The notes below the pieces were generated by a model, which was not told where the DNA came from, ran no database searches, and saw only the letters and a program-made list of their open reading frames with translations. Source: Stentor roeselii (taxonomy: Eukaryota; Ciliophora; Heterotrichea; Heterotrichida; Stentoridae). From it: 43,905 nucleotides of DNA. The position numbers and the translations under genes were made by a program. Every line of letters begins with the position of its first letter. Position 1 is the stretch's first letter. This document shows positions 3,800 to 41,247 of this stretch, piece by piece. The stretch is taken from contig RSEH01000334.1 in NCBI GenBank assembly GCA_006503475.1, positions 1-43,905 of the forward strand, read 5' to 3'.

Positions 3800-4672
3800 A
3801 TGTCTTCAAGTTCAAAGTGTTTAGGAATCTCCTTCAGAACATGCTGGATAATCTTCTACATAATGACAGTTCTTCTAATCGGCTTGATGATCGCTTCCTT
3901 ATTGATAGAAAGCTGGATTTACGTAGAAATAAACGACGATGATACCTTCAAAGGTGGGTTGACGAGATACAACGAGCCGAAAGACGACAGTTACAAAGAC
4001 TCAAAAGAAGACACTTGTGATTCATATGATAAGTTAAAAGAAGAATACGATAAACTTCAAGGATTCGACACAAGTGCTAGTAAACTCTTGCTCAACATTG
4101 CAAACTCACAGTGCAAAATGCTGAAAAGTCTCCTTATCGGCGGGCAGGTCTTTATTGGACTTGAAATATCTGCTATTTTCTCTTTAGTTCTTTGGATAGC
4201 TGCCCAGGTCTTCTATTGTGTTAAAGGTAAAGCTCTTGTTTTAGCTTATTTCAGTTCTTGTTTTGGGTTATTCTTGCATTTGGCTGGAATCGCGAGTTTT
4301 ATGGTTTTGACGAATACTCTTTATGGATCTTGTGATGATTTTCCCACAAATGGAAATGCTCCAAGACTTTGTGCGACTGTTGGGCCGAGTATCGCTATTG
4401 CAGTATTTTTTGGATTAGGTTTAGAAACTATCGTCTTTTTTGTGGTCGCCTGCAAATTGCAAAGGTCTGAAGGATTTTCTGGGCTTTCAAAACATGGGGA
4501 AAGGCATGAAACTCAAGCACACCATGATAAAAATGTTGAGGAAATCAATCAGACTAAGATTCATAATATCAATGACTCACTTCCTGATAATAATGAGGAG
4601 GTTTTTAAAACTTCAGGCAGAGGACAAGGAACAGATAGGCTTGAAAATATATCTACAGTGAAGAGACATTAG
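3800..4672 (+). CDS. Claudin-like four-transmembrane protein (paralogue 2)
   Basis: 290 residues with four membrane segments near 15-38, 110-138, 146-170 and 195-220. It shares with paralogue 3 the N-terminus (ISFRTCWIIFY), the loop block GGLTRYNEPKDDSY..SKEDTCDSYD, the extracellular motif CDDFPTNGNAPRLCA, and the tail motif GRGQ. The tail is charged and polar rather than Pro/Gln-rich as in paralogue 1. It starts 122 nt after paralogue 1 and directly follows TTATAAA. It is a product of tandem duplication; the role is unknown, probably a plasma-membrane or cortical membrane protein. Confidence 0.8.
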   Translation: MSSSSKCLGISFRTCWIIFYIMTVLLIGLMIASLLIESWIYVEINDDDTFKGGLTRYNEPKDDSYKDSKEDTCDSYDKLKEEYDKLQGFDTSASKLLLNIANSQCKMLKSLLIGGQVFIGLEISAIFSLVLWIAAQVFYCVKGKALVLAYFSSCFGLFLHLAGIASFMVLTNTLYGSCDDFPTNGNAPRLCATVGPSIAIAVFFGLGLETIVFFVVACKLQRSEGFSGLSKHGERHETQAHHDKNVEEINQTKIHNINDSLPDNNEEVFKTSGRGQGTDRLENISTVKRH

Positions 4673-6006: not shown

Positions 6007-6849
6007 ATGTTAAAAAAGCCAGGGTGCATTGGGGTTTCATTTCGGACTTTCTGGATAATTTTCTATGCATTGAATGTCATGATGATTGGCTTGATGATTC
6101 TATCGTTAGTATCTCAAAATTGGGTCTATGCGAAATTAGGCCGCAATGTCTCTTTAGAAGGAGGTTTGACTGGCTACAACAAACCAAAGAATGATGACTA
6201 CAGTAATTCAAAAGATGATACATGTAATTCTTATGATATGCTGAAAGAAGAATACAAAGAGTTGCAGGATAATCGAATAGTCTCTGATACTATCAAACTT
6301 TTAGTCAATTTAGAAAATTCAAAATGCAAAATGTTTTCAGGTCTTATGGTTGGGGGCAAGGTATTTATAGGATTAGAAATCGTTGCAGTTGTTGCTTTAT
6401 TAGTTTGGATTATTGCCAATGCTGTGTATTGTTTTAAAGGAAAATTTATTTTTATTGCTTATGTTAGTTCATGTTTTGGTTTGGTTTCGCACTCAGTTGG
6501 TATAGCTAGTTTTATGGCATTAACTAACACCTTTTATGGATCTTGTGATGAATTTCCTATATATGGAAGTACTCCAAGACTATGTGCGTCATTTGGACCA
6601 TCTTTAGCATTGGCAGTATTAATAGTTCTAGCTTTAGAAACATTTATGTTCTTCATAGTCGCATGCTTAGTCCAAAAGACTTGTGGAAACTCAGGTCTTT
6701 TAAAAGAATTAAAAATCTCAGACGATACTCAAAACGTAGAAGAAGTAAATGAAACAAAGTCCCAAGGCATAAACGATTCAGTTCCTGAGAAGGATAATGA
6801 TGAAGTTATTAAGAAAACTGGGCGAGGACAAGTTACCGAGAGATATTAA
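6007..6849 (+). CDS. Claudin-like four-transmembrane protein (paralogue 3)
   Basis: 280 residues with the same layout as paralogue 2: an N-terminal membrane segment after VSFRTFWIIFYAL, the loop block GGLTGYNKPKNDDYSNSKDDTCNSYD, membrane segments near 108-135, 143-168 and 193-218, the CDEFPIYGSTPRLCA motif, and a polar tail with NVEEVNETK and GRGQ. It is clearly a direct duplicate of the 3800-4672 gene, now 1.3 kb away and with more A/T at third positions. The start follows GATATAAAAAAA. Function is unknown. Confidence 0.8.
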   Translation: MLKKPGCIGVSFRTFWIIFYALNVMMIGLMILSLVSQNWVYAKLGRNVSLEGGLTGYNKPKNDDYSNSKDDTCNSYDMLKEEYKELQDNRIVSDTIKLLVNLENSKCKMFSGLMVGGKVFIGLEIVAVVALLVWIIANAVYCFKGKFIFIAYVSSCFGLVSHSVGIASFMALTNTFYGSCDEFPIYGSTPRLCASFGPSLALAVLIVLALETFMFFIVACLVQKTCGNSGLLKELKISDDTQNVEEVNETKSQGINDSVPEKDNDEVIKKTGRGQVTERY

Positions 6850-15386: not shown

Positions 15387-16454
15387 CTAGTACCGCCTGG
15401 TCCAAGGCGACTCGTCTCTTCTATGAGCGGGAGCGGCAGTCGGGTCTCTTAACTTTGGAGGCTGGTCGAATAACTTCTTGGCTCGGTCGTAACTTTCAAG
15501 GTCTTCTCCGTAGATTTTCCAGTCCTCTGGGTATACTGCAGCGTCTTCTTTGAATGGCTTCCAGTTCTTAGGGGAGTAAAGCTCTGTTACATGTCTTTCA
15601 TACATATTGTTATACTCATATCCTTTAACCTTCTCCACATCATGCTGATCAATATTATGACTAGTATACCCAAGATTTTCCAATTTTTCATGTAAAGCAA
15701 CATCCCAAGGCATATTCATACTTTTTTCCTTCAAGAACTCATCAACAAAAACCTGTTCAAATTTCTTCTCGGTTTCCTCACAATGAATAGCAGCTAAATT
15801 TTTAACTTCACTATGATATTCACGAATACTTTCCCTTTCCTCACTTGTAACATCTCTCAAGTACTTAGCCGGAGATCCAGCCCAAATTTGTCCAGAAGGA
15901 ACGACAGTGCCTTTAACAACAACAGCTCCAGCAGCCACGACGGAATACGACTCAACAACAACTCCATCCTCAACAGTGGCTCCCATTCCAACAAAAGAAT
16001 AATCCTGAAGTGCAGCGCCTCCAACATAAGAATTAGCAGAAATAATGACTCCCCTTCCAATTTTAATACCTTCATTACCTTCTCTTCGTTTAACAGTGGC
16101 TCGATCATGGACAATGGAGTCTTCTCCAATGATGATGGCGCTGACGTCGCCTCTCAACACTGCGCCATACCAAACAGAAGAGTTTTTTCCTAAAGTCACT
16201 TCTCCAACGATGCAACTATTGGGTGCCACGAAGTTGCTACGAGAAAGATCAGGAATACTTGTCTCAGTTGGCACGTTTCTTATCGATTTGACGTCTGATT
16301 AACACTCACAGTTTTCGACGTAGGAATAAGGATTTAAACGTACACCTGCAGAGTCTATCGACTTTCCTAATGTTCTTAACTAGATAAGTCTTACAAATGG
16401 ACCTAATTTAGTTCTTGTGAAATGATCTCCTAATGATAAGAGAAGTTGACGCAT
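15387..16454 (-). CDS. Gamma-carbonic-anhydrase-like protein (complex I subunit), three exons
   Basis: 345 residues once two 15-nt introns (16380-16394 and 16295-16309) are removed; without them no ATG precedes the conserved core. The N-terminus (LRTLGKSIDSAGVRLN) matches the start of mitochondrial gamma-CA subunits. The left-handed beta-helix core follows (VTLGKNSSVWYGAVLRGD, IGEDSIVHDRATVK, GVIISANSYVGG, VGMGATVEDGVVV). The three zinc-ligand His positions of the active Cam enzyme appear as Lys112, Ala130 and Gly135, so catalysis is unlikely. Plant and ciliate mitochondria carry such proteins in the matrix arm of complex I. A charged ~105-residue C-terminal extension follows. The ATG directly follows TTTATAA. 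Confidence 0.9.
16295..16309 (-). other. 15-nt intron (second of gamma-CA gene)
   Basis: Minus-strand sequence GTGAGTGTTAATCAG. It splits a Tyr codon (T|AC). It contains an in-frame TAA, so unspliced RNA could not encode the conserved N-terminus. Confidence 0.9.
16380..16394 (-). other. 15-nt intron (first of gamma-CA gene)
   Basis: Minus-strand sequence GTAAGACTTATCTAG, phase 0, between Phe20 and Leu21. It has the canonical GTAAG donor and T9-A10. Confidence 0.9.
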
Positions 16455-16471
16455 TTATAAAGGTTATTCAA

Positions 16472-17047
16472 TCATTTACGATTATTACATCTCGAAAACA
16501 CTTTTGATTGATTGTAAAGTCTTTCATGCACTTTTGAGTCTTTATTTTTACAGGTGCTGCTGAGGATTGGAGTGTTTTTACGGTTTGCATCACTGGAGAG
16601 ACCTTGAAGAGAAAGTTTTAGAATAGTCGAATTCTTTGATTTGACGTATTCTTTCTGCTTCTTGTCAAAACTTTTTAAGGAAGATTTGATTACCTTGACG
16701 TTGGTTTTCGGTTTAAAAGTGCATCCTTCAAGCTCTTTGATTTCTTTTTCCATCTTCATGAACTTTATTTTATTTTCGCTGATTTGCTTCAAACATAGAA
16801 GTCTTTCTGGCAAGTCACTTGTTTTTTTCCTTAATTTTCTGAGTGAACCTGTCATTTCATCGATTTCTGTGAAGAGCTTGGAAAGGGTAGGCTGGTAACT
16901 TGGTCTTTCTATTTCAAATGTACAGCTGTTCGTCGAAATCGTTTCGGAAAATACTTTATGATGACGAGATTTCTGGAATAGTTTTACCATTGGCTTCAGA
17001 GGAAATCCTTCCATGTCTAGTTCTTCGAAGTCTTCGGATGTACTCAT
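16472..17047 (-). CDS. Small coiled protein with CTFKPKTN motif
   Basis: 191 residues, ending at TGA. A helical, charged centre (about 70-120, with LRKLRKKTSDLPERLLCLK and KIKFMKMEKEIKEL) leads into CTFKPKTN. This motif of the ECTFxPxxN type recurs in many ciliate and flagellate coiled-coil proteins; HERLYNQSK further on resembles the RLY element that often accompanies it. Function is unknown, with cytoskeletal or ciliary use suspected. The ATG follows AATATAA. Only 17 nt separate its stop from the gamma-CA start on the same strand, so little room is left for a separate promoter. Confidence 0.75.
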   Translation of the reverse strand: MSTSEDFEELDMEGFPLKPMVKLFQKSRHHKVFSETISTNSCTFEIERPSYQPTLSKLFTEIDEMTGSLRKLRKKTSDLPERLLCLKQISENKIKFMKMEKEIKELEGCTFKPKTNVKVIKSSLKSFDKKQKEYVKSKNSTILKLSLQGLSSDANRKNTPILSSTCKNKDSKVHERLYNQSKVFSRCNNRK

Positions 17048-24740: not shown

Positions 24741-25998
24741 CTAGGCAAAGCAAATTTTCTGCAAATTAAATTTCAGATCCTTATTCTCTTCATTCATTTT
24801 TACTATTTCCTCTTTAATTTTTTCGAGATCGATATTACTTTCCGAGTCTCTTTCAAATTTAATCGATTCAAGTTGATTCTTGTAGTTTTCAGCTTCGTTT
24901 AAAGCAATTTTTAATTCATTTTCTAAATCAAAGAGTCTGCTTTCATAATTATTTTCTATAATTTTTTGATTAATCTCATTCTTTAGACATTCTATTTCAA
25001 GTTTATTAATTTGTTGCATTTTTTCATTCTCTGATAATAGCTCTTTATGATTTTTTTCTAATTCCTTAAGGTTTTGTTTCATTCGATCTAAATCTTCTGA
25101 TAGTAATGAATTATTTTTCCTAAAAATAAAATTTTCTCTATTAAGATTTTCTATTATTTTATTTTTCTCATTATTAGAATCAGTCAAATCATTATTTTTA
25201 TCCTTTAAAACTTTATTTTCTTCTTTAATTTTGGAAATCTTTTCCTTATTCTTTCTGATTTGATCTTCCAAATCATGAATTTTTTTCAAATCGTCTTGTT
25301 TTTCATTATGAAACTTTTCTCTTTCTATTTCACATTCTTTTCCTTCTAGATATTCCTTAAGATTTCTAATATTTTCAGTAAGTCGATTTATTTCTTCAAT
25401 TTTATCAGTAACCTGATTCTTTAATTTTATATTTTCTTCCGATTTTTCATTAGACTCGCATTTCAATTTCTGATTTTCTTCCCAAAGAATCTCTTTATTT
25501 TCAACACTTTTTTTTCCATTTTACTTCAAAGTTTTCATCATCTCGAAAACAGTTGAAACTATTATTTAAAGTTGAAAGATTCTCTGAAAAATTACTTTTT
25601 TTTTCTGATATTGAGGAAAATTCAGAAAAGCCACTTATTTTCTTTAACTTTTTAGCATTACCGTATTCTTCACTATTAACTGAAAGATGATCAATATCTT
25701 TCTTTTTGAATTTATCTTTTATGGGTGGTTTACCTTCGGTATTTTTCTTTAGTTTATCTAGTTTTTGGATTTCTCGTTCATCATTAATCATTGGAATTTG
25801 AAGTTGAATGACTTTGGAGGTTATTGGTAATTGAGTATCTTGGGCTCTTAAGGTACTATTTGAAAGATTGCTATTTGAAGGTATTTTAGGAAGTTTTGTA
25901 TGTTTTGAACGGGGTGAGTGCGATGCTTTTTGTAATTTTTCTAAATTTGGGTTATAAAGATTTTTCATATAAGTAGAATATATTTCTTTTTTGCTCAT
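24741..25998 (-). pseudogene. Coiled-coil gene split by a homopolymer frameshift
   Basis: Two frames join into one protein of about 415 residues if one base is dropped from a run of eight A (plus-strand T8, 25508-25515). Before the run: a Ser/Lys-rich region with LPKIPSNSNLSNS and KLKKISGFSEFSSIS. After it the other frame reads on without any start codon (SVENKEILWEENQKL) straight into a long coiled coil (about residues 180-410, Lys/Glu/Asn heptads such as INRLTENIRNLKEYLEG), ending at TAG. No 15-nt intron fits, so this is either a sequencing/assembly indel or a recent inactivation. It starts at the Met at 25998; longer readings use TTG. It is not recognised beyond a structural coil. Confidence 0.6.
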
Positions 25999-26461: not shown

Positions 26462-29334
26462 TTATATTTTCGTAATGCAGAGATTGCAAGGACTTTTAGT
26501 GCAAAAGTTGCAACAGGGATGATTGCAGCTAGAACGATAAGTATTTGAATTGTTTTTTTTGCAGATGATGCAGGTGCAATAAGGACACACTTTGTATTTT
26601 GTTTTGCATTCAGAGCATATTGAATGGTTTTGATGAGACTGAAAATTTTTGTTTTGCTTTTTGCACATGATGCAGCTGCATAATCGACATTCCACTTCTG
26701 TGCAGGACTTACATACTGGGTGGAGACTTGATTTGCATTTCTTCATTGTCTGATTATTGCAATATATGCATTTCTGAGTGAAGGTTTCACATGAATTGCA
26801 AAATTTTCCATCGTTTTTCATGCAATTTGTTGAACAGTATATATGTTCGCAATTAGTATATTGATTGCAATAACTTTGAATGATTGACAAGTTGAGCAAG
26901 GATCATCTATTGGCTTCTTTAACACTAATGCCACCTGTTCTTTCAATCGATTTATAATAAATTCAGATTTTTCATTGATCTCATATTTGTTGATCTGAAT
27001 CCTTAAATTTTTTATTGATGTATGAACTTCATTAAACCTTTTTAACATTTCTGATATTAAAAAAGAGCATTTACTTGTAAATTCTTTTTCAATTTCTGTA
27101 ATTTTAGATAAAAGTTCGGATTTCTTCCCTTCTTTTTCAAATAAGTACATGATTTTTTTCTCCTGAATAATTTCTTCTTGAGAAACCATTATTATCTCAC
27201 ATCCGAGTTCTTGGTGTGGCAACAAATGCTTGAGACACATAAATTGTGAGGGCTTGCAATTGCTGCATTTTCCGTAAGCTTTTAACGAACAAATATCAAA
27301 TTGGCAATTCGAATTTATACTTTCAGAATTATTTTTCTTTAGTTTAAGTGTGGTAGGGTGATTATCAGCACATGATATACAAGGACCTGCATTAAAACAA
27401 TTATTACAAAGTTTATGACGATAGCCTGGGCAATATTGTAAAATCAGAATAGACTTACAGTGATCACATTGTTCACAATTACAGATCTCTGTAGTGCTAC
27501 ATTTTTGGCAGTATAAATGAGGTGTATCACAACGACTTTTGATTTTATTATCGTATTTTCCGCACTTTGAGCAAGTATAGTTCTTGATTTTTCCAGTGCA
27601 GACCAAGCACGTGTCTCCCATGATTGATATATAAGTTTTATAACAATTAAGGTTATAACATTCAACACAAAATATATTGTGATCGCAGGTATTATTTGCT
27701 ATTTTAGGTAGTTTTTTGCAGCAAAGACATAAATCTGAGCAATTTTTGCAGATTTTTAAAATATTTGATGGATAATCAGGTCGCTTACATTGACTACAAG
27801 TCGAACATTGCTTGCAGGCTATTCCATTATTCATCTTGCAATTTTCTGAACAAAATTTATGCTCACAATTAATATATTTCTGGCAATTAAACATAAATTG
27901 GGAACAAGTCGAGCAAGCATCAGTGCATTCTTTGCATATTGTATCATTATTATAAATGCAATTGCTGCATATTGAATGCTTTTGACAGTCTAATTGATAT
28001 AAATTATAATATTTTTGTCCACATTTATAACATTCTTTTAAGCATTCATGACAAATATGATTAGTTTCCAAACACTTTTTACATCGTTGATGAATATTAC
28101 ACTGAAGTTTCAGATAACAATTATTGCAATATATATGATAATTTTCACACTTTCTGAATTCGTACGAATATTGATTACACCCTGAGCATAATTCTACGCA
28201 ATTTTCACAGCCTTTCTGCTGAATGCAACCTCCACATCCTCGATGATCTTTTGGGCATCCATATTCTTTATTGAAGCACTCATTTTTTTCGCAAGTAATG
28301 TGTCCTTGAATGCATATTCTCTTCCAATAACCTTCTTGTCTACATTCAATGCATGATTTTGAGCACTTGTTACATCTTTGATTTTCACAATTTCCGCATT
28401 TATAGTGCTCATTATATTCACAGTCAAATTTAAGGGATTTAATAGTTTCATTGCCACAGTTTACACAATATGCTCGATTTCTATAATATTCAGCACATGG
28501 CTCGCAAGGACCTGCACTCAAACAATTATTACAAAGTTTATGACGATTATCTTGGCAAGAATATAATGAAAGAATAGACGTAAAATTATCGCATTGTTCA
28601 CAATAACACATCTCTGTAGTGCTACATTTTTGGCAGTATAAATGAGGGGTACTACAACGACTTTTGATTTTATTATCGTATTTTCCGCATTTAGAGCAAG
28701 TATAGTTCTTAATTTTTCCAGTGCAGATCAAACAGCCGTCTCCCATGATCGATCCGTAATTTTGAAAACAATTAAAACAAAATATATGATTTTGGCATTT
28801 TCGTAACCGATACATCCCTTCAACTTTGCAAATATCACAAGTCTTTAAACATAACTTGCACTGATTAGCCACACAATAACTACAAGAAGGATGTTTACAA
28901 TCATTATGAATTGAATCAACTTGATACTTTTTGCAGTTTATGCATGTGCAGAATGGACAAATACCATTTTTATTATAGCATTCCCCGCAAATAGAGTGAT
29001 TTTGATGAGTTGCCATATTAGCTTTTTTCTGATTGCACATTCCACAGTAGCACATTTTACAATCTTTATCTCGGCAGTCCAGGCACAAGGGATGAATTTT
29101 CGATTCACATTTTTTTGAGGTCCAATTGATATGACAAGTACTGCATTGAGCAGCTCTTTTATCCTGCATTAAGAATTCAATTTTGATGTCGAGAGAGCAT
29201 GTGAGACATCTCAATGAATTTTCAACGATCTTTTGAGCACAATCATAGCATACTTTATGATACCTAGCCTTGTTAACGAAATAGTAAAAGTTGGCCTTTC
29301 CACAGACTAAACAACTTTGCTTACAATTCACCAT
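26462..29334 (-). pseudogene. Cys-rich multi-RING/B-box protein, frameshifted near the 3' end
   Basis: The first frame gives ~820 residues of tandem Cys/His knuckles. An internal B-box-like finger plus coil lies near 675-800 (CSLKAYGKCSNCKP..CLKHLLPHQELGC). Just after CSTCQSFK the frame is lost, and an overlapping frame carries on the array (SYCNQYTNCEHIYC...) for ~135 residues. Adding one A to the AAA at 26875-26877 would join them, matching the internal sister unit CSTCSQFMFNCQKYINCEH column for column. No 15-nt intron fits. The protein is internally duplicated: the block from CLVCTGKIKNYTCSKCGKY occurs twice, and the tail repeats the head (CGMCNQKK..HQNHSIC versus CIMCKKQN..HQNHSIC). A zinc-binding, possibly ubiquitin-ligase-like protein is inferred. 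Confidence 0.7.
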
Positions 29335-29648
29335 AATAATTACAAGTGTCTATATTTTAATTATTATATAGGATCAAATAAAAATTTTCTTATATTTTTA
29401 GTTTCTAGTTAACTTAATTACAGAGCTTCTCTTATTTTCATGCTAAAGAAAATACAAACCATTCTGAATAAGTTATCAGAAATTTTAAAGCATTTTTCAG
29501 ATATCAATCAAGAAGAGAATTTTATATAATTTGATAATTTAAAGATTTAGGACTAATAAGTAAAACACCCAGTCCAAATCTAATAATGCTACTCTCATTC
29601 AATATTCATATTAATAAGCTTGTATTGAATGCTTAGACTAAGTTAGAT

Positions 29649-30053
29649 CTAATAATTTTCCTTAATAATCCAAGAAGAAGTGCTTTCGAACCCAAGATCA
29701 TCTTCAAAGCTTTTATTTTGAATAGTATTTAGTAAGAGATGCTTTATTGAGTGAAATTCTTATGCAGATCGATCTTGTTCACTGCGATAGACTATCAACT
29801 TAGTTATTAGGAGATCAGTTTCTCTAGATTGAATCAAACAGCCAGTGATTAGAGAATTTTCAGTTATTTCAGTTAACTCTTCATCAGAAATCTGATGAGC
29901 TAGGCTGTCGATTATTTAAATTTCTCTGTAGTTTTTTTTCCTCAATAGTTGTCTCTCTATCATAATGAATCGGCTGCTTAGAATATAGATTGAATGAAGT
30001 ATCATTGAATCTTTCTCTTCCTCAGTCAATATTTCTTTGATTTGATTAAAAAT
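29649..30053 (-). pseudogene. Decayed gene fragment, unknown family
   Basis: One minus-strand frame runs 135 codons with only two internal stops (TAA at 29916-29918 and 29760-29762), giving clean runs of 45, 51 and 36 codons before a TAG; about eleven stops would be expected by chance. Codon position 1 is rich in G (GAA, GAG, GAT), as in real genes, and the product is acidic and helical (ILTEEEKDSMILHSIYIL; ISDEELTEITENSL). Both stops fall where Gln fits. The frame stays protein-like for ~50 codons upstream with two further stops. The family is not recognised. Confidence 0.5.
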
Positions 30054-30224
30054 TTTAGATATCGTTGATAAAAGATTGATTATTTAAGCTTTCAAGTTGA
30101 TAAATGAGGTACAATTCAAAAGTGAATCTGAATTATCAACATAGAATACAAATATTTAAAAGAATTTATAAAGATTATCAATATCTATATATAATATACT
30201 TTTTCGGTTACTATTCAATTAAGT

Positions 30225-30354
30225 TCAACTACACAATTATTATAAGCCATTATAAATTATTTTTAACATTGGTATGAGGAAAAGTGATTTCAACTACACA
30301 ATTATTATAAGCCATTATAAATTATTTTTAACATTGGTATGAGGAAAAGTGATT
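30225..30354. repeat. 65-bp perfect tandem duplication
   Basis: Two adjacent identical 65-nt units (30225-30289 and 30290-30354), beginning TCAACTACACAATTATTATA. As 65 is not divisible by three, it would break any reading frame crossing it. Confidence 0.93.
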
Positions 30355-30512
30355 TTACTATAAAATAAACACTAATTTTTAGGGTATTTCTTTAAGTTAA
30401 TGAATGGTAAAAGAAGATCAAATAATTTTTTTTAATTTTAAATCAGCCATATAAGATTAGAACTATAATATAAAAGGGTTTATAAAAAAGATAGTAAAAT
30501 TTAACTTTTTAA

Positions 30513-32126
30513 CTAACTACTATTTCCTAAACAATAATGGCCATCTTCGTATAATGATTTACAAACAGAACAAATTCTTATTGCACAGCAATTCAAATCG
30601 ATTGTTTCATCATTTTTCGTATAAGGAATCTTTTTCGTTGGGTGCTTAGGACAATTATAATAATGAGGGCAAAGATTACAACTATTTGTGCTATTTGCAT
30701 ACCCTGAATCCCAACAATCTTTACATATTTTGTGCTTACAATTAAGTTGTTTAATATACCCAATATTTTCCTCCAAACAAACACTACATAATTTTTCGCA
30801 TTTGCATATTTGATCACTATCATTAGAAAATCCTGGCAAATATTTCTTACATATTAAGCAAATATTTGTATTTTCTTTTAATTTGTGAAAATTGACGCTC
30901 TTATAATTCATACACATGCAACAGTATTGATATTCTGATAATTCACTGATATTTTTAATTTGATTGCATTTTTTACAATTTAAAAATTGATTATTCATGT
31001 TCATCATACATCTATTACAGTAATTTTGATTATTTGAGAATTCTGATATAATTTTCCATACTTTACATGATTCACAGAATTTATTGTCTAAACTTCTGGA
31101 AAGAGTTGTAAATTCTTTATATCTGCACTGTTGACAATTTCCATTAATTATTTCTAATGTCTTGAAATTTTTCTTGCAAGATATGCAAACTATCTGAGAT
31201 GAACAGTTCTGACAGTACCCGTCAGTGAGTTGAATAAAATAAAACAGATTCTTGCAATTTGAACAACAAGAAATTGTCAGGCATGACTCACAATATCCAT
31301 CTTTAAACTCGGTTACATTTTTTTCTTTGTGGCAGCCTAAACAAGGAACTATTGGTGAACAGATTTCACATTTTCCGTTTTTTAAATCAAATCTTTTATA
31401 TAGCTTTGAACAGGAATTACAATTTTCTAAAGAAAGACATTTTTTACAATAACCATCTTCTAATGTTGAGTATTTTACTTTGGTTTCGCAATTTTTACAT
31501 TTCAAATATTTGCAATTTTCACAGTGAGTATCGTCGTTATTCTGTATGGGAAACACATCGTTGCATTTTTTACACTTTTTAAGCTGGAGACATTCAAGAC
31601 AATTGATGGATTCATACCCTAAAGGTAATTTTAAATCAACGTCTACCAAATTATCATTAATTTTGCACTTTTTACATTTTTTGCTACAATTTTTGCAATC
31701 ACAAATACTGAAAGAATTGAATATCTTATAGTATTTATGAAAAGCAGAAATTTCTTCCAATTGGTTTATAATCAAATCATGTTCCTCATTCGATTCACTG
31801 TTATAAACCTCATTCATTTGGTTTTTGATAATACTGTGAACTTCATTAAAATGTTTTACTATTTCAGATATCAAAAGAGAACTTTTCATTGTAAAGTTAT
31901 TTTCAACTCCTTTGATTTTAGCTAGAAGTTCTTCTTTTTTCGATTTTTTTTCAAGGTACTTCTGAAGTTTGATTTTTTCAAGGATTTCGGCATGTGGCAT
32001 AATGATTATTTCGCATTGAAGCATTTCGTGATCATGTAAATGTGTGAGACATAAGTACTTTGCAGGTTTACACGTGTTGCATATGCCATAAGCTTTAGAG
32101 GAGCATAAGCATGATTGACAACTCAT
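30513..32126 (-). CDS. B-box / CxxC-knuckle / RING protein
   Basis: 537 residues. B-box-like finger at 1-40 (CQSCLCSSKAYGICNTCKP...CLTHLHDHEMLQC), then a helical coil (about 45-135) with the family motif LLISEIVKHFNEVHSIIKN. Residues 145-410 are short zinc-knuckle repeats of about 23 residues, CxxC-x8-10-[FL]x[DN]Gx-CxxC (e.g. CGxxx..LEDGYCKKC, FKDGYCESC, LTDGYCQNC). A good RING (C3HC4 spacing) follows near 450-490: CSVCLEEN...NCKHKICKDCW...CNLC. The layout is TRIM-like in order (B-box, coil, RING last rather than first) and suggests a ubiquitin ligase; this is inference. The start is set by the shared leader TATAAATATG. Confidence 0.8.
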   Translation of the reverse strand: MSCQSCLCSSKAYGICNTCKPAKYLCLTHLHDHEMLQCEIIIMPHAEILEKIKLQKYLEKKSKKEELLAKIKGVENNFTMKSSLLISEIVKHFNEVHSIIKNQMNEVYNSESNEEHDLIINQLEEISAFHKYYKIFNSFSICDCKNCSKKCKKCKINDNLVDVDLKLPLGYESINCLECLQLKKCKKCNDVFPIQNNDDTHCENCKYLKCKNCETKVKYSTLEDGYCKKCLSLENCNSCSKLYKRFDLKNGKCEICSPIVPCLGCHKEKNVTEFKDGYCESCLTISCCSNCKNLFYFIQLTDGYCQNCSSQIVCISCKKNFKTLEIINGNCQQCRYKEFTTLSRSLDNKFCESCKVWKIISEFSNNQNYCNRCMMNMNNQFLNCKKCNQIKNISELSEYQYCCMCMNYKSVNFHKLKENTNICLICKKYLPGFSNDSDQICKCEKLCSVCLEENIGYIKQLNCKHKICKDCWDSGYANSTNSCNLCPHYYNCPKHPTKKIPYTKNDETIDLNCCAIRICSVCKSLYEDGHYCLGNSS

Positions 32127-32312
32127 ATTTATAGATTTACTTTGAGTATATCATTTGATTTAAAACTTTTTTAAGGAATTTTGAAATTTTATGATTGAAT
32201 AGAAAAGAATGAATATAGTTCATAAATCATTCATATCAGAATGAGATGATAAATACTTAGGAAGTGGTATGGCCTATCTTATAAAACAGCTTTGAATACT
32301 GACATATTGTAT

Positions 32313-32328
32313 AAAATATAGACACTTA
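32313..32328 (+). promoter_or_regulatory. Shared upstream element, copy 1
   Basis: AAAATATAGACACTTA lies 187 nt upstream of the 32126 start codon. The identical 16-mer lies 188 nt upstream of the 41247 start, while surrounding sequence is not alike. A conserved promoter or enhancer element of the B-box family is a reasonable guess. Confidence 0.45.
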
Positions 32329-33040
32329 AGTTAATTATTTGAAGAACTATGGAAATTGGTATAAGATCATTAGTGAATATTTTTAGATTATCATTTCGAG
32401 ATTAATATAAAACTTTATTTTTATCAATTTTTCGATTAATTAAGTATCATCTGATTCTTTTTAGTATATTAGTATCAATCATCGTTCTAAGGAGTATTTT
32501 TACACTTCAATCGTTTTCTTATATTATTTTTAGTGATACAACGAACTAGACTTATTATAATTAATCCTTGAAAATACAAAGATTCACTCATAATACTTCC
32601 TTTTGTCTATGAATTTAATTTCAAGAATTAGTTCTATATAAGATAAGTTATTCAAATATATGGAAAAGATTGCAATATCTAAGATTTTATGGAAATTTAT
32701 TGTTACCTCAACCCCTAGAGTAAGTTTAATAATCACATTCTTTAGTAAAAAAATCTCTAATTATTTAAATCCAGAGATACTCGAAAGCTTTAACAGTAAT
32801 CAAAACAAATTTTATTATAAAAAGAGATTAATTTTCAAAATTATGATAAAACTGAATTTCTTCTAAAATAACAACCTCAACAAATACTCAAATATAATAA
32901 TATTTCTATATAATCCTATATCTTTCATTTCTACTAAAAATTAAGTAGTCAAATTGATCCCAAATTTCATTCTAAATAAAATCTGTTAATATTTAAACAA
33001 CAAAAAATGTAATATATTTTAACCTTATAAAATTCTCTAA

Positions 33041-33573
33041 AATCTAAAAGTTCTATTCGTTCCGACAATAACTATTTTCAGTCCACTCGAAACTTCCGAT
33101 TTCTTTCACTCCTCATCAACAAATCAATCGAAAGAGCCTTTCTATTCTAGTTCCTTAAACAAAAGTTTGACCTCATCATTTCATTCTGAATTTAAAACAT
33201 CAAGAAATGATCAAAACAATTAAAAAGGTCTAATGTATTACAAAACCAAAAAAAATTCGCTTAAGAAATAGAAAGACTTGAAGGAAATTTGAAAAATGTT
33301 GAAGAATCTAAACATGGCTAAATCAGCCTGATTTTACTTGATAAAGAAATCATTAATTTTCACAGGTGTGTAAAAACTTGAGGGAAAATGAAAAGAATGC
33401 TCTCAAGTAGGTTAACTTAAATCTAAAGACCAGCTTTGAAGAGAAAATTCCTTAAAATATTAATAAAATTAAACTAAATTGAAACAATAAAGTGGAAAAT
33501 ATATATTCAAGAAGCTGAGCTACTTAGAAACACTGAAGATTTAAGGGTAACTATAAATAACAAAGAAATTAAT
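33041..33573 (+). pseudogene. Frameshifted relic of a Ser-rich/coiled-coil gene
   Basis: A clean 60-codon frame (33041-33223), Ser-rich (SKEPFYSSSLNKSLTSSF), ends at TAA. Shortly after, another frame shows coil-like pieces (EIERLEGNLKNVEESKHG; IQEAELLRNTEDLRV) broken by several stops. No start or intron pattern makes it continuous. A dead gene is the simplest reading; the family is unknown. Confidence 0.35.
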
Positions 33574-33658
33574 TAGGAAATAAAGGTGATCTTTATTATT
33601 TACATTTAGATTTGCATTAGAAGTTTTGAAGAATGAATTATCTAACTATCTGATTAAT

Positions 33659-34549
33659 CTAACTGCTTGAAGAAGAACTTGATATTTTTTTTGATCCTAT
33701 TTTTATTTCCAATCCAGAATTTATCTGGACTCTCGGAGGTTCAATTTTTGCTTTAATTTTAGGTGTAATGACTTTTTTTTTTCCCGAACTACTGCTTGAA
33801 GAAGAACTTGATATTTTTTTTGATCCTATTTTCAATCCAGAATTTATCTGGACTCTCGGAGGTTCAATTTTAACTTTAGGTATACTAATTTTTGGTATTT
33901 TCGGACTACTGCTTGAAGAAGAACTAGAATTTTTTTTTCCTCCTATATTCACTCCAGAATGGACTCTCGAAACTTCAACTTTTGCTTTAATTTTAGGTGC
34001 TTGAATTTTGGCTTTTTCCGAATCACTGCTTGAAGATGAATCTGAATATAATTTTTTACTGATATTAGCAACTACACTAGTAGTATTTTCATGTACTTTA
34101 GCTGATTGAGACCTTGTTATTTCATTTCTTTCACAACAACTTGTACATAAAATAGAACTCATAGTTAAGACTTGATCCCGGATCAAGTTTATAATCGTAG
34201 CCCTATCCTCTTTAAAATCGTTTCTCAATACTTTTTCTCTCTGACTCCTTATAAACAAGTTTATTTCTTTAAACTTTTCCTCAATTAGAGAGATCATGTA
34301 ACCGCTCTGCTTACAAATATAATTTTCATACTCATTAACTTGATATAAAAATTCAGTATTAAGTTTATTCCTTTCAAGTAATTCTTGCTTTTTCATCATT
34401 CGATCTAATTTTCTAGAATTTATTGTCTTTACTTTGCATCCGTAGTTTTCGTGCACACCTAAATGCGAAAGACATAAAAAATTGAATACTTGGCAGGTTT
34501 TACATTTTCCACGGGCTTGCATGTTGCAACCTTGTGTTTGGCAGTTCAT
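33659..34549 (-). CDS. B-box protein with Ser-run repeat tail
   Basis: 296 residues. It opens with the family B-box-like finger (CNMQARGKCKTCQV...CLSHLGVHENYGC) and coil (SGYMISLIEEKFKEINLFIRSQ), but then has no RING or knuckle array. Instead, after CTSCCERNEITRSQ, the tail is a repeat of about 40 residues: a basic Pro/Val stretch (PKIKAKIEPPRVQINSGL), IGSKK, and a run of 7-9 Ser. It ends at TAG inside a Ser run, as if cut short by repeat contraction. The first ~150 residues link it to the cluster; the tail may be a phosphorylated or disordered linker. Confidence 0.75.
   Translation of the reverse strand: MNCQTQGCNMQARGKCKTCQVFNFLCLSHLGVHENYGCKVKTINSRKLDRMMKKQELLERNKLNTEFLYQVNEYENYICKQSGYMISLIEEKFKEINLFIRSQREKVLRNDFKEDRATIINLIRDQVLTMSSILCTSCCERNEITRSQSAKVHENTTSVVANISKKLYSDSSSSSDSEKAKIQAPKIKAKVEVSRVHSGVNIGGKKNSSSSSSSSPKIPKISIPKVKIEPPRVQINSGLKIGSKKISSSSSSSSSGKKKVITPKIKAKIEPPRVQINSGLEIKIGSKKISSSSSSS
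33661..34045 (-). repeat. ~120-bp imperfect tandem repeats in the Ser-rich tail
   Basis: Three units of about 117-127 bp plus a partial fourth, each beginning (plus strand) with ACTGCTTGAAGA and containing a pyrimidine/T-run and CCAGAATTTATCTGGACTCT or a shorter form of it. The two distal units are nearly identical. Confidence 0.85.
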
Positions 34550-35671
34550 ATTATAATCTTGAGTAATGTCTACAATTTATGGAAATATAAATGGAAAATT
34601 AAGTCTCGAAATATTTGATATTGACTTGAAAATAGTTTGTTATAAGAATGATAGATTATTTTTGTACTGTTTCTATAGTCGATATGGTAGTTGAAAGAAA
34701 TAGAAACATGCGAAGATCTATTTGATTATAAATATTTGATGTTTAAGTAGATAGTTTTTTAGGACTTATATTTAAATCTTGGATACTTTTCTTATTTAAT
34801 TAAGTTATCTTCTTTAATCCTATTAGAGAGGCTCAATATATAATCTTAAATGTTTCAATGATATATAAATGAATTCTTGAAAGTTTTTTTTGTATTTAAA
34901 GCATTTAGAATGTAAGTTTAAAATTATCAGGTATTTTTCAGCAAAATCAAAACATATATTTGGGGATGAACATATTCTTCATTCAAAAAATTCAAATAAT
35001 GCAAGTTTTAAAATCAATCAGCCTTCATACGCCCATGAAAATCTGCATCTTAAAGAAAATTAAATAAATAATACTTAGTTAATTACACCAGCAAAACATC
35101 TAATAGTTAAATCGGTACTATATTGATATCGATTAAATAAAGATAAGTGAAATATCCAACTTTTAAAATTTTTTTAATTATCCAGAATTTTATCCTCTCC
35201 TTTCCAATGCTACTAAGAAGATAATTAATCATTTGACAATAAACTTCATTTAAATTTATTCTTATCTCTTTAGCTTGATTCTTGATGGCTCAACCTAAAG
35301 TTCTGAGCCTCAATATAGTTTAAATATCGAGAGTATATTAATACCAAGTAGTTTAATAAATTTCTTGTAAAGTAAATATCTTAGGATGGTGATGATATCT
35401 TTTCAGGTTTACTGAAATATTAACTAGTTTCATTACTTGGCTGGCCAGCTTCAATACTTTTTTGATTGATATGAATTACATTTGGTTATGTATTACTTGA
35501 ATTAAACTTGGATAATTATAGTGATTATATCACTGAGTTTTATATATTATTTACTTTAAATGTAAGATCTTCAATTGGAAGGCCATGAAATAATTTTAAA
35601 GAATAGCATAATCTTTCTAAAAAACTTGTTCAAACTCTAAGAAGATATTATTCTGGATATTATTCTATTCA
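34550..35671. other. AT-rich spacer
   Basis: No gene is supported. A plus-strand frame from about 34880 to 35064 is free of stops for 60 codons but rich only in Ile/Lys/Gln, which is weak evidence. Nothing else is seen. Confidence 0.45.
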
Positions 35672-37120
35672 TTAAATCAAATACTTATTAAAATTATTGG
35701 GTTTACTTAACGAACAAATATGGCCCTGTTCGAAACCTTTCTTGCAAGAAACACATAAATAAGCTTCACAGCATTCTGCAAAAACATAAATACTTCCTTT
35801 AGCAAAATATATTTTCTTCAAAGGATGAGAAACGCAATTAAAGTACTGCTGATAGCATAGAGAACATTTAGAGTTATTTAAGTCCTTGCATTTAGCACAG
35901 AATATATGATTGCAAATGTATTTGTGAGGCTTTTCAGGAATCTCTTTTCGACATTTATCGCAGTAAATATTACAATTGCATTTTTCATCAGTATTGTTAA
36001 CATAACCACGATAAATCTTGTAACATTTTTCGCATTGTTTAGACATTTCTCCTTGGTCTCTTGATGAATAACATGAAATACACTCGGTTCTATTCGCAAA
36101 GTCGTTTTGAAGCTTATTCTTATTGCAGACTGAACATTGAAAGTATTGTTGTTGAGCGACTAATTTAGCATAACAATCGTTACAGTAGTTTTCATTTTTA
36201 GTAAACAAACTATGATGCTTATAAGTTTTACATTTTTGGCAGGCTATGTGATAACAATCTCTACAAAGTTGATTGTTGTCAAGTTCTGATTTTAAAAACA
36301 CTTTATTGCAGAGTTTACATAAATTTCGTTGATTACAGCAATTTTGACATGCAAAACCTGATTCAATTTGAATGCAGATTTGAGATTGATATCTTTTTCT
36401 ACAAAAAATGCACTCAATCAAAGTACTACAAGTTCTACAAAGTCCAGCTTGTAATTCTTTCGATTTCACAGAAGTTTTACAATAAGAACAAGATGAAGGG
36501 ACACATGCTTTGCAAAATTTTGAATTCTTAAAAAAATTATTATTATTCAAAACAATTTTGCAATCTAAACACATTTTCAAGTTCTGACAGATAAGACAAT
36601 AATCGTTTTTAAATTCATTAGGCAATTTAGCACCTTCATAAAAAATTTCTTTTTGATTATTGCACTTCTTGCAAAATTTAGAACAATTTTTGCATTCACT
36701 TTTCTTTATATATTCATTAAAAGTAGGCATCGTTTTAACCTTCTCTTTTATCTGGTTTATAATTGAATAGATTTCCTTATCCCAGTCATTTTTCGAAATT
36801 TCGACCTTTTTAGTTTTGATAAAACCATGAATTTCATTAAAACTCTTTAGAGCCTCTGATATAAACAAGCAACTTTTATTGATAAATTCGATTTCAATTT
36901 CATTGATAGCAGCTAAAATCGCATTTTTATTTTTACAGTTTTCAATTTCTTTACGTTTATTTATAATCTCAACAATTTCATTCAGAGGAATAGTCCTGAT
37001 TTCACATCCTTTACTTTCATGCTTTCCTAAATGCTTCAAGCATAAAAAGTTGGATTTTTCACAAGTGTTGCATTTTCCATGAGCTTTTAAAGTGCATCCT
37101 TTGGATTCTTCACAACTCAT
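35672..37120 (-). CDS. B-box / CxxC-knuckle / RING protein
   Basis: 482 residues from the Met at 37120, which follows the family leader TATAAATATG; an ATG four codons upstream is open but less likely. B-box-like finger (CTLKAHGKCNTCEKS...CLKHLGKHESKGC), coil with LFISEALKSFNEIHGFIK, then knuckle repeats (about 145-380) and a terminal RING CDKCRKEIPEKPHKYICNHIFCAKC...CSLC, followed by a Cys-containing tail ending after GHIC. Its 3' ~1 kb is a near copy of the 3' end of the 38119-41247 gene. A zinc-binding, possibly ligase function is inferred. Confidence 0.82.
   Translation of the reverse strand: MSCEESKGCTLKAHGKCNTCEKSNFLCLKHLGKHESKGCEIRTIPLNEIVEIINKRKEIENCKNKNAILAAINEIEIEFINKSCLFISEALKSFNEIHGFIKTKKVEISKNDWDKEIYSIINQIKEKVKTMPTFNEYIKKSECKNCSKFCKKCNNQKEIFYEGAKLPNEFKNDYCLICQNLKMCLDCKIVLNNNNFFKNSKFCKACVPSSCSYCKTSVKSKELQAGLCRTCSTLIECIFCRKRYQSQICIQIESGFACQNCCNQRNLCKLCNKVFLKSELDNNQLCRDCYHIACQKCKTYKHHSLFTKNENYCNDCYAKLVAQQQYFQCSVCNKNKLQNDFANRTECISCYSSRDQGEMSKQCEKCYKIYRGYVNNTDEKCNCNIYCDKCRKEIPEKPHKYICNHIFCAKCKDLNNSKCSLCYQQYFNCVSHPLKKIYFAKGSIYVFAECCEAYLCVSCKKGFEQGHICSLSKPNNFNKYLI
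35690..36690 (-). repeat. ~1-kb dispersed direct repeat, copy A
   Basis: Roughly 93% identical by eye to 38105-39095, same orientation, offset about 2.4 kb. It covers the knuckle and terminal RING part of both genes; similarity ends sharply where the 5' parts differ. Confidence 0.85.
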
Positions 37121-37443
37121 ATTTATAGACATATTGAATAATAGGGTTCTTATAGTTCTTTATTAGAAAGAGTTTTGCTTAGAGTGAAAAATTGCATGAT
37201 TGATTGCTGAAATTCTCAGAAGTGTGAGCGCTTATTTGGAATTGTTTAAATCATGTATGAATTCATAGAGTTTAATTGAGATGTAGGATAGGAATCCACA
37301 GTTGTATTTGAAATCGAACTGAAATGAAAAGAAGTGGAAAATAAGATATTTATCTGATGTTTGTCACTGAATATTACTTAAAATTGTTTAAAAATTTTCT
37401 TAAACACAAACTATTATCAAATAATTCAATTCAAAGCCTTTAA

Positions 37444-37945
37444 AACCTCGTGAATTCCCTATCTCTTGATAATACAACACTTTTTGAAATCCTTCACAGT
37501 GAAAGTGAGACAAGCTCTACTAAATCTGAAATATTTTTATCAGAACCACTTATACTCAAATCCAATTTTTCTGTGATGAAGTCTAAGGATGCCAAATTTT
37601 CACGAAAAAATTCAATCGATGATGTAAAACTTTTATATATGTAAGACTTAGCATAATCTTAGAACCGCAACAGAAAACATTTAAGTAAAGAAAATTTTCA
37701 GCAGCCATGACAATATTTCCTGCTTTTTATATAATGAGTGTCAGCAAAAATCTATCGATAGACTATCTGAAAGGAATGAGAATCAAGTATCTCATAAAAA
37801 TATAAAATTAAAATTATTCTTGCTTATCAATCCAAAAATTGATCATCTTCAAACCTTTCATTTATATTATTTATCTCTAAAGATTTCAGACTATGATCCT
37901 TTCTTAAACAGCATTAAAAAACAATTAAGAAATAAAATAGTTTGA
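37444..37945 (+). pseudogene. Broken or multi-exon plus-strand gene in spacer
   Basis: Two stop-free frames lie in series. The first (37444-37644, 66 codons) reads NSLSLDNTTLFEILHSE...IDDVKLLYM; past its TAA the same frame remains protein-like for ~20 codons (NRNRKHLSKENFQQ) with further TAA and TAG. The second (37685-37945, 86 codons, no ATG at its head) reads FSSHDNISCFLYNECQQK...FLNSIKKQLRNKIV to TGA. Such runs are improbable in random AT-rich DNA. GTAAGACTTAG at the first stop resembles an intron donor half but no 15-nt intron fits. A decayed gene is likely; the family is not recognised. Confidence 0.5.
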
Positions 37946-38104
37946 TTACCAAATGATGAAACATTATCTATAGTTTAAAAATAATAAACGAATTATTATA
38001 TATCCGAAAGCTTTTTTAAGTAATTAATGAATCTAATACTGTATATTGTGATCAATTCAATATAGAATTAAAAGCATTTATTAAACTAATAATTATTGAA
38101 ATTA

Positions 38105-39095
38105 TTGGCTTTACTTAATTAACAAATATGGCCCTGCTCAAAACCTTTCTTGCAAGAAACACATAAATAAGCTTCACAGCATTCAGCAAAAACATAAATA
38201 CTTCCTTTAGCAAAATATATCTTATTCTTAGGATGAGAAACGCAATTAAAGTGCTGCTGATAACATATAGAACATTTAGAGTCTTTTAAGTTCTTGCATT
38301 GAACACAAAATATATGATTGCAAATGTATTTGTGAGGTTTTTCAGGAATCTCTTTTCAACATTTATCGCAGTAAATATTACAATTACATTGTTCATCAGT
38401 ATTGTTAACATAACCACGATAAATCTTGTTACATTTTTCGCATTGTTTAGACATTTCTCCTTGGCCTCTTGATGAATAACATGAAATACACTCTGTACTA
38501 TTCGCAAAGTCGTTTTGAAGCTTATTCTTATTGCAGACTGAACATTGAAAGTATTGTTGTTGATTTACTAATTCAGTATAACAATCGTTACTGTAGTTTT
38601 CATTTTGAGTAAACAAACTATGATGCTTATAAGTTTTACATTTTTTGCAGGCTATGTGATGACAATCTCTACAAAGTTGATTGTTGTCAAGTTCTGATTT
38701 TAAAAACACTTTTTTGCAGAGTTCACAATAATTACGTTGACTGCAGCAGTTTTGACATGCAAAACCTGATTCAATTTTTATGCAGATTTGAGATTGATAT
38801 CTGTTTCTACAAAAAATGCACTCAATTAAAGTACTACAAGTTCTACAAAGTCCAACTTGTAATTCTTTCGATTTCACAGAAGTTTTACAATGAGAACAAG
38901 ATGAAGGGACACATGCTTTGCAAAAATTTGAATTCTCAAAAAATTCTTTATTATTCAAAACAATTTTGCAATCTAAACATATTTTCAAGTTCTGACAGAT
39001 AAGACAATAATCGTTTTTAAATTCATTAGGCAATCTAGCACCTTCATAAAAAATTTCTTTTTTACTATTGCACCCCTTGCAAAATTTAGAACATT
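38105..39095 (-). repeat. ~1-kb dispersed direct repeat, copy B
   Basis: The counterpart of 35690-36690. It holds the premature TGA that copy A lacks (CGA in copy A). Confidence 0.85.
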
Positions 39096-41247
39096 GAGGG
39101 CATTCTTCATTTTGATAATTTTTTTTATATATCGTCGAGCATTTATCGCATTTAAATATACTTAAAGTTTCCTTCTGATTAAGGCAAAAAGGGCATATAA
39201 TTATATTATTTTTTTGATATTGAGTGCAAGCGTATCGCATATTATTACAAACATCGCATTTATATTGACGCATATTAAAACACTTTGGACAATCTTGTGC
39301 GCATTTGTACATAATGCAAGTTGAACAAATAAGGTAATTACATGAATGAAACTGGTTTGATCCTTCTAGCCCTTCATTACAGATATGACATTTATTTTTC
39401 TGATAATTTGTTAGGCATTCTAAACAAACTTGTGAGTTAGGGATCTTATAAATTAAATTTTTATGGGTATTGCAACTTTGGCATAAATTATTTTCTTTGT
39501 TATCTTCACAAATAATGCACTTTTTAAAATTTCCAAAGCAATGTTTGCATATATGTCTACAACTTGTAAAATTATTAGAATCTTTGTGGCATATTTGGCA
39601 TGTAATTAAACAGATATTGCACAGTTTCGATTGATTTGTACAATTTTGACATTGCTTATGACCACAAGGTAGTTCATTCTTGCTTATATTATTTCCACAA
39701 GTGTTGCAAATACAATTTTTACATATTTTTATATTACCATGGTTCATTAATATTTGAAGAGGCTCATTTGTTGACTTTCTACAGTTCTTGCAAATATTAT
39801 TTAGGCAATCCAAACATTTTTCATTTCCATACTCGATACAATTGAAACAGCATTCATGTCCACATTTCATTTGTCTAATTAATTTCGAATTTTGGCAGTT
39901 ATTGCATTGGCTTTGCTGATAATATCCTTGACAAAGCATACAAACATCTATAATACCATGATTTGTGCAAAGTGCGTGATCTTGCTTATCGCAAAAAAGA
40001 TTTCCTTCTTTCGCACAAATGACACATTTAATTTCACAAGTTTTACATCTGCCTTGAAGTTTATTGTAACAACCTTCACAAAATAATCTGTAGCATACTT
40101 GGCATTGAGTTCCTGGAGTTTCTTTATGGTTAACACAACATATTCTGCAATCTTTATTATGTGGTGATTCTGTTTTTTCAAGGCATGATAAACAAAAGTA
40201 ATGGGAGCACTCAAATTTTAAGTAATCTTCAGATATATGATGGTTGCATAGAGAACAATATAATCGGCACTGATCTGAATTATTGTAACAATTATGGCAT
40301 ACTTTGTGGTGAGTGCAATTTAAAGTTTTATAATCATTGGTTTTTTTATTACAAAATTCACATTTTCCTGAATTTAGTATAATAAAATCGCAAAATGGGC
40401 ATTTTGACTTAAAATAATTATTGCACTCAGTACAAAAATAATGATTATTGCAATGAAGTTTAATAATGTTTGTATTTTTTCTACAACAGATGCAAGATTG
40501 AGGATCGTAAGTGCAATTTTTACATATTTTTAATAATGCATCTGGATTCAAAGACTTAAGTTGGCAATTATTACAGATAATACATTTTGTGCATGAAAGC
40601 CCATTTTCTTGTTTACACTGATCTGAGCAGTAATAATGCTCACAATTATTATATTTATAGAGATCAAATATAGATCTTTTACAAGTTGAACAATATCTTA
40701 TACATTGTTTACAGACTGAATAAGATTGAAGACTATTCAATGTTTTTTTAAGAGAAGTTAATTCATTTGAATAAACTCCACATTTATAGCACATTTTAAT
40801 ATCTAAAACTTTGACACCGTTCATATATCCACTCCTGGTAAATTCTAAGAAACTCGTAAAAATATCTGATATTTTTTTCTTCAGTTGGTTTAGAATTATA
40901 TCTCCTTCTTTAATCTCATTTTGAAATACTTCTAACAGATTATTTTTTATTAACTGATGAACATCATTAAACGATTTTTCTATTTCTGATATTAACAAAC
41001 AACTTTTACTCGTAAATTCAATTTCAATTTTTCTGATTTCTGTAATAATTTCTAACTTTTTATTGTTTTTTTGGATATTTTCTTGAATTTCTATCTGCTT
41101 ACGAATTTCTTCGAAGGGCATTGGGACTATTTCGCATCCACGTATTTCATGTTCGCCCAAATGCTTAAGACATAAAAATCTCAAGGGTTTGCAAGTGTTG
41201 CATCTACCAAAGGCTTTAAGCCCAAGTTGACATGATTGGCAACTCAT
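38119..41247 (-). pseudogene. Giant B-box / poly-RING protein with in-frame TGA
   Basis: 963 residues precede a TGA at 38356-38358; the frame then stays open for 78 more conserved codons to a TAA at 38119-38121. The B-box-like finger (CQSCQLGLKAFGRCNTCKP) and coil (LLISEIEKSFNDVHQLIKN) open the protein. From about 150 to 720 there are around fifteen tandem RING-like units (e.g. CEFCNKKTNDYKTLNCTHHKVC; CNTCGNNISKNELPCGHKQC), then CxxC knuckles. The TGA sits right after CDKC, the first Cys pair of the terminal RING, where the 35.7-kb paralogue has CGA (Arg). Either a truncated protein, a fresh nonsense mutation, or read-through. The start follows TATAAATATG. Confidence 0.78.

Follow-up and report, generated by a model that had tools for sequence, protein, structure and literature searches.

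A tandem cluster joining a B-box-like finger and coil to RING-like arrays and zinc-knuckle tails: a candidate scaffold family of a probable heterotrich-like ciliate

The window analysed here is the whole of contig C269, 43,905 bases, from a 44.4-Mb assembly of 522 contigs that was also the genome searched for relatives. On its minus strand, five reading frames (A to E), called under the standard code, lie head to tail within positions 26462-41247, as an initial annotation of the DNA had described. All five encode a finger and a coil, and their remaining parts diverge, again as first annotated, into RING-like arrays (A and E), CxxC-knuckle arrays (B, D and the E tail) or a Ser-rich tail (C). 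The features of the cluster, all on the minus strand, are listed below.

26818..29334, minus strand: gene A main frame, 838 residues; RING-like array, then B-box-like finger and coil
27370..29145, minus strand: A array of 12 RING-like units (residues 64-655), partly non-contiguous, by a relaxed C3HC4 pattern
28490..28775, minus strand: A internal duplication, copy 1, 85% DNA identity with 27365-27650
27365..27650, minus strand: A internal duplication, copy 2
26923..27309, minus strand: A internal finger and coil
26462..26902, minus strand: continuation of A in the shifted frame (one base, at an A-run), with 2 RING-like units
30513..32126, minus strand: gene B, 537 residues; finger and coil, CxxC-knuckle array, RING, second zinc module
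31746-32126, minus strand: B finger and coil
30669..30788, minus strand: B C3HC4 RING (PF00097, E 3.1e-4, 21 bits against a cut-off of 21)
30531..30653, minus strand: B post-RING module C-x2-H...CC...C-x2-C...H-x-C, by alignment and reading
33659..34549, minus strand: gene C, 296 residues; finger and coil, Ser-rich repeat tail
34169-34549, minus strand: C finger and coil
about 33662-34057, minus strand: C Ser-rich repeat tail
35672..37132, minus strand: gene D, 486 residues; finger and coil, knuckle array, RING-like unit, RBR-like module (RBR, RING-between-RING)
36710-37120, minus strand: D finger and coil
35855-35962, minus strand: D RING-like unit
35714-35836, minus strand: D RBR-like second module
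35667..36685, minus strand: D tail, near-identical to the E tail
38356..41247, minus strand: gene E, 963 residues; finger and coil, 7 RING-like units, knuckle array, ending at a TGA
40825-41247, minus strand: E finger and coil
39508-40692, minus strand: E array of 7 RING-like units
38076..39093, minus strand: E tail, partner of the D tail
38119-38355, minus strand: E residues beyond the TGA, 78 more homologous residues

The module order is inverted in gene A, where the array comes first, the finger and coil follow from residue 674, and a shifted-frame array piece comes last that shares 42% identity over 116 residues with the start of the A array. The N-terminal placement first given to the finger is therefore true of B to E but not of A. 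The roughly fifteen consecutive RING-like units first seen in A are a fair count (12 units before the frameshift and 2 after it, with a few further stretches that by reading miss one ligand), but not all of them are contiguous. A perfect 67-bp tandem duplication is present at 30224-30355, just downstream of gene B.

Some 140 residues of finger and coil can be aligned among the five proteins, at 25-51% identity to E, and the alignment consensus contains the coil motif LLISEIxKxFNEVHxxIK noticed initially. The finger ligands follow the order C-x4-C-x7/8-C-x2-C-x6-C-x2-H-x3-H-x4-(C or H), with small variations. Compared with hhalign, the finger gave a probability of 49 (E 1.7e-4) against eight B-boxes from its own genome and 7.6 (E 0.0046) against eight AN1 fingers, B-box against AN1 giving 1.1. 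The Pfam B-box models matched none of A-E in scans at E<=1 and E<=5, and the 49 Pfam B-box hits in the genome are all on other contigs. Per-member Pfam scans of 16 family members returned weak AN1 matches in five and an ANCHR-like B-box in two, and the top row of a PDB search with the finger was AN1-like (E 0.012; entry 1wfe, which we take to be an AN1 finger). No PDB match better than E 0.18 was obtained with a finger-coil profile. AN1 was dropped as the identity of the finger, since the profile comparison favoured the B-box and an AN1 model run against the genome found none of the finger-coil loci. "B-box-like" appears the best label for the finger and denotes a likeness, not family membership; the B-box named in the initial annotation is favoured by profile comparison, but the per-member Pfam matches and the top PDB row tend towards AN1. 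Ordinary RING plus B-box proteins, TRIM-like in order by reading, occur elsewhere among the 49 hits (L001-L005, L008).

A relaxed C3HC4 pattern recovered 12 units in the main frame of A, 2 in its shifted frame, 7 in E and a single unit in either of B and D, and nothing in C; three relatives elsewhere in the genome (C516, C256 and C134) together contain 16. In 300 residue shuffles the mean was at most 0.18 units per protein; a block shuffle keeping CxxC pairs and segments gave a mean of 9.2 for A (maximum 13) and 4.9 for E (maximum 8). Given these block-shuffle values, the number of units alone shows Cys-rich arrays, not RINGs. A profile was then made from 28 of the 39 pattern units (16 from the window and 12 from the three relatives), 11 less regular or near-duplicate units being omitted. 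At E<=1 its matches numbered 142 distinct PDB sequences, RING2/BMI1, TRIM39, CBL, TRIM21 and IAP among them, with a best E of 1.6e-4, against 14 sequences (best E 0.057) for a control profile in which Cys and His were kept and the other residues permuted. All of the best 60 of the 142 matches belong to RING proteins or to fusions with a RING; one of these rows bears the name COMMD3. Per-unit Pfam scans at E<=0.5 found zf-C3HC4_3 in 12, zf-RING_5 in 11 and zf-C3HC4 in 10 of the 28 units, compared with 0, 4 and 7 for the permuted control; scans of whole proteins were nearly silent, only the B RING reaching the cut-off. Because both the profile and the per-unit matches exceed the permuted control, the array units are, as judged by sequence comparison, RING-like beyond their Cys/His spacing, in line with the arrays first proposed.

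A hydrophobic residue before the second Cys (CxPhiC) and a Pro after the seventh ligand (C7) are features by which RINGs contact the ubiquitin-conjugating enzyme (E2). Contacts were counted over 38 units, 23 from the window and 15 from C516, C256 and C134, the list of 39 having been trimmed and merged. The CxPhiC residue is present in 14 of them, the Pro in 6 and a Lys/Arg linchpin after the eighth ligand in 3; none of the units carries all three E2/ubiquitin contacts, 3 carry two, 17 carry one and 18 carry none. The meaning of the linchpin and of the term pseudoligase is taken from PMC11992055. We read most array units as probably non-catalytic. The genes might instead encode multi-RING ubiquitin ligases, in which many RINGs gather E2~ubiquitin for fast chain building and the finger and coil assemble the chains of RINGs further. 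This idea draws on the RING-like character of the units, on the B RING at the Pfam cut-off and on the finding of PMC9675739 that TRIM5alpha synthesises more chains when three of its RINGs come close together, but it meets weak single-unit Pfam matches and the contact counts above, among them the scarce Pro after C7, and we consider it unlikely. A fifteen-RING ligase in particular appears unlikely because no unit among the 38 has the full set of contacts and 18 have not one of them, and a very long ubiquitin ligase is not borne out by these residues.

Genes B and D each end in a RING followed by one zinc module only, with no RING1-IBR-RING2 series, and by reading the chain runs 13 residues (D) or 5 residues (B) beyond the last Cys of that module. 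For a low-confidence AlphaFold model of the D C-terminus, 40 of 42 Foldseek rows were RBR ligases (best E 0.40). The parkin and HOIP ranges matched by the post-RING module are presumably those of RING2 as well as of IBR, and neither label is adopted. On this weak modelling, the B and D ends appear to resemble RBR ligases cut short. Searching the genome with the D end recovered the genes D, E and B together with two weak matches, on C421 and C99. C134 was considered as a further carrier of such an end and rejected: the likeness appeared in a four-row alignment only, at 34% identity, and the genome search missed C134. The CxxC-knuckle arrays of B, D and the E tail, which the initial annotation had picked out, matched little in the databases: 21 knuckle units yielded just two weak rows from the PDB (HypA, E about 0.5), and 20 of the 21 compared with Pfam showed no family common to more than one member.

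The D and E tails share 93.5% DNA identity over 1019 columns, with proportions of synonymous (pS) and nonsynonymous (pN) differences of 0.106 and 0.070. In all ten A-E pairs the N-terminal pS is 0.57-0.77, near saturation. Because the tail pS is so far below the N-terminal values, the D/E tail must have been copied or homogenised in recent times. Judged from these divergences, the cluster is young, and the near-identical tails together with the internal A duplication agree with the earlier view of a family still rearranging. A self/non-self or pathogen-recognition repertoire, with variable zinc-finger tails pressed to diversify as in animal TRIM restriction factors, could account for a tandem array with differing tails and recent homogenisation and loss; pN is, however, below pS in ten of ten N-terminal pairs and in the D/E tail, a weak test with pS near saturation, and such a repertoire seems quite improbable.

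The same comparisons bear on whether the cluster is decaying, with A and E as newly formed pseudogenes and the arrays as remnants of genes that once worked. The in-frame TGA of E, which lies inside its RING end, is CGA (Arg) in D, the E tail has lost one Cys, A carries its frameshift, the C516 relative has a TAG in frame and a frameshift at an A-run, and the ratio of nonsynonymous to synonymous substitution rates (Ka/Ks) of the D/E tail, 0.65, is not confidently below 1. Yet B, C, D and the C256 relative are all open, and Cys and His are preferentially kept: between the D and E tails 1 of 56 is substituted, compared with 47 of 280 among the remaining residues, stops not counted (p 0.0014). The internal A duplication is constrained as well (Ka/Ks 0.39, nonsynonymous change rarer than synonymous, p 0.01), and the E residues beyond the TGA compared with D give a Ka/Ks of 0.28, on 17 changes only. 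Because an unrelated coiled-coil-like gene at 24741-25998 (minus strand) is likewise split by a frameshift at an A-run, at about 25500, the frameshifts of A and C516 point to assembly error, and that of A is possibly one. The in-frame stops of E and C516 are not homopolymer-type errors, and no tiny intron that would explain the E TGA or the A frameshift was found by eye. E probably lacks the RING-plus-one end because of the TGA inside it and the lost tail Cys. Decay of the cluster as a whole is rather improbable on this evidence.

The CxxC-rich repeats and the variable tandem family also recall Cys-rich surface antigens such as variant surface proteins or immobilisation antigens. Hydropathy alone, however, applied to 13 proteins and pieces, gives a highest 19-residue Kyte-Doolittle mean of 1.55 and reveals neither a membrane-grade stretch nor a clear signal peptide, and Lys plus Arg make up 13-18%; a surface role is very improbable.

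The finger-coil front is a widespread module within this genome. The E finger and coil matched 15 places (E<=0.01) and those of a kinase-tailed relative 18, which merge, with C256 added because the finger is visible in its frame, into about 23 loci, some rows being weak (E up to 0.008) and large families being undercounted. The tails of front-end loci outside the cluster are as follows.

C112: protein kinase
C290: protein kinase
C32: Kelch
C179: GLE1-like
C178: RanBP-type zinc fingers, below the Pfam cut-off
C516 and C256: RING array

C134 carries RING-like units without the finger-coil front. Because the front end recurs with kinase, Kelch and RING-array tails, the cluster is part of a broader family that exchanges modules. 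No relative could be confirmed among viral contigs, which were scanned with the E array and with the finger-coil profile. The closest outside relative of the E front, at 51% identity, is on C173 (L011/L040) and runs into an Arg-rich stretch; a further front-end-like gene lies near it (L040 7480-9096).

The host can be narrowed from the rest of the window. By reading, two 15-base GT..AG stretches with an A at position 10 interrupt a gamma-carbonic-anhydrase-like gene at 15387-16480, and removing both gives one open frame. For Stentor, PMC9505925 gives introns of 15-16 nt, most of them having their branch A at position 10, together with the standard code; for Blepharisma, PMC9942806 gives introns of 15-16 bp, with UGA read as Trp. 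The 23 listed window frames end in TAG (9), TAA (7) and TGA (7), two of the TGA being the disputed ends of A and E. We infer a probable heterotrich-like ciliate with the standard code.

We give a probability of about 0.5 to the reading that A to E belong to a young, rearranging family of intracellular zinc-finger scaffolds, with mostly pseudo-RING tails, in a heterotrich-like ciliate. Self-association would most likely fall to the finger and coil, as it does to the corresponding region of TRIM proteins, whose coiled coils mediate dimerisation (PMC4864278). The tails would serve as exchangeable binding arms made of RING-like runs (A and E) or zinc knuckles (B, D and the E tail), and the RING-like units, mostly without E2-activating residues, would act as protein-binding rods (pseudo-RINGs). 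The single RING with its RBR-like module at the B and D ends would be the likeliest E2-recruiting part. The set would be renewed by tandem duplication, unit duplication and tail homogenisation while single copies decay. It is in this sense that we infer a scaffold role, oligomerisation and E2 recruitment for A to E. A more far-reaching version, possible but doubtful, is a new class of poly-pseudo-RING scaffolds, in which rods of at least a dozen units, perhaps with two zinc ions per unit, would be assembled through the finger and coil into a fast-evolving recognition or assembly platform of heterotrich ciliates, some with a short RBR-like ligase end, and renewed by unit duplication and tail exchange.

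Several points weigh against the scaffold reading. Picking units by Cys/His pattern and omitting 11 of them both favour RING matches, and 13 of the 14 PDB matches of the control profile are also RINGs. The AlphaFold model of the array is weak (mean pLDDT, the predicted local distance difference test, 48.6), and Foldseek on it places LIM pairs at the top and RING rows below (best E 0.041); the model of the D C-terminus has a mean pLDDT of 54.8, with its RING mostly below 50. Ordinary RINGs in 12 other loci of the same genome carry at least two E2 contacts in 3 of the 5 found (Fisher p 0.014), a contrast with the array units that speaks for the scaffold reading, but this control is small (n=5), used a stricter pattern and also accepted His as the linchpin. 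Some active RINGs lack a contact residue, and the residue test is not decisive. The D/E tail Ka/Ks is indistinguishable from 1 (p 0.15).

Elsewhere in the window, G+C is about 0.28-0.42 over the first 20 kb and drops to about 0.26-0.31 across 20001-42000, and an ARM-repeat gene outside the cluster is also on the low-G+C side, with a third-position G+C (GC3) of 0.29. At the contig end, 43685-43867 (minus strand), lies a DUF4216 match (PF13952, E 8.5e-17), the sole one in the assembly; DUF4216 is typical of plant CACTA-type transposons, and the contig may be chimeric or contaminated at this end, or may have captured an element there. Three neighbouring related multi-span membrane proteins, tetraspan- or claudin-like by eye, are encoded on the plus strand at 2691-3677, 3800-4672 and 6007-6849, and a chitin synthase (PF03142, E 6.7e-30) at 10656-13412 on the minus strand.

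Among known systems, TRIM proteins likewise combine RING-like, B-box-like and helical-coil parts within a single protein and have variable C-terminal modules. Their order of RING, B-box and coiled coil, once each, occurs in none of A-E, in which the finger comes first and RINGs last, or the array precedes the finger (A); moreover, they have one RING where many RING-like units stand here, and the finger of A-E is unseen by the Pfam B-box models. The RBR ligases HOIP, HOIL-1, parkin and HHARI share with B and D a RING and a following module, modelled here at low confidence as like IBR/RING2, whereas B and D have no third module and, by reading, no catalytic-Cys motif of the usual RING2 form. TRIM pseudoligases, as described in PMC11992055, also retain a RING that has lost its E2~ubiquitin contacts, but with one RING per chain instead of up to a dozen in series. 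The LIM-array adaptors FHL2 and PINCH resemble the proposed scaffolds in using serial double-zinc modules as protein-binding rods, and fill the top Foldseek rows of the low-confidence array model; they differ from the C3HC4-like spacing seen here, and the unit profile finds RINGs and no LIM among its best 60 of 142 PDB matches. Keyword searches for such arrays or families in one open-access library gave, among the matches listed, no title or abstract opening that describes a protein with a dozen RING-like units, most subscription journals lying outside this scope.

In summary, the architecture of A-E is unusual. RING fingers are mostly treated as ubiquitin-ligase modules; if the scaffold reading is true, RINGs, like LIM domains, could be strung together as repeated building units. 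The cluster offers a small and testable example of TRIM-like exchange of modules in organisms only distantly related to animals, and the ordinary RING-B-box proteins of the same genome allow the comparison to be made.

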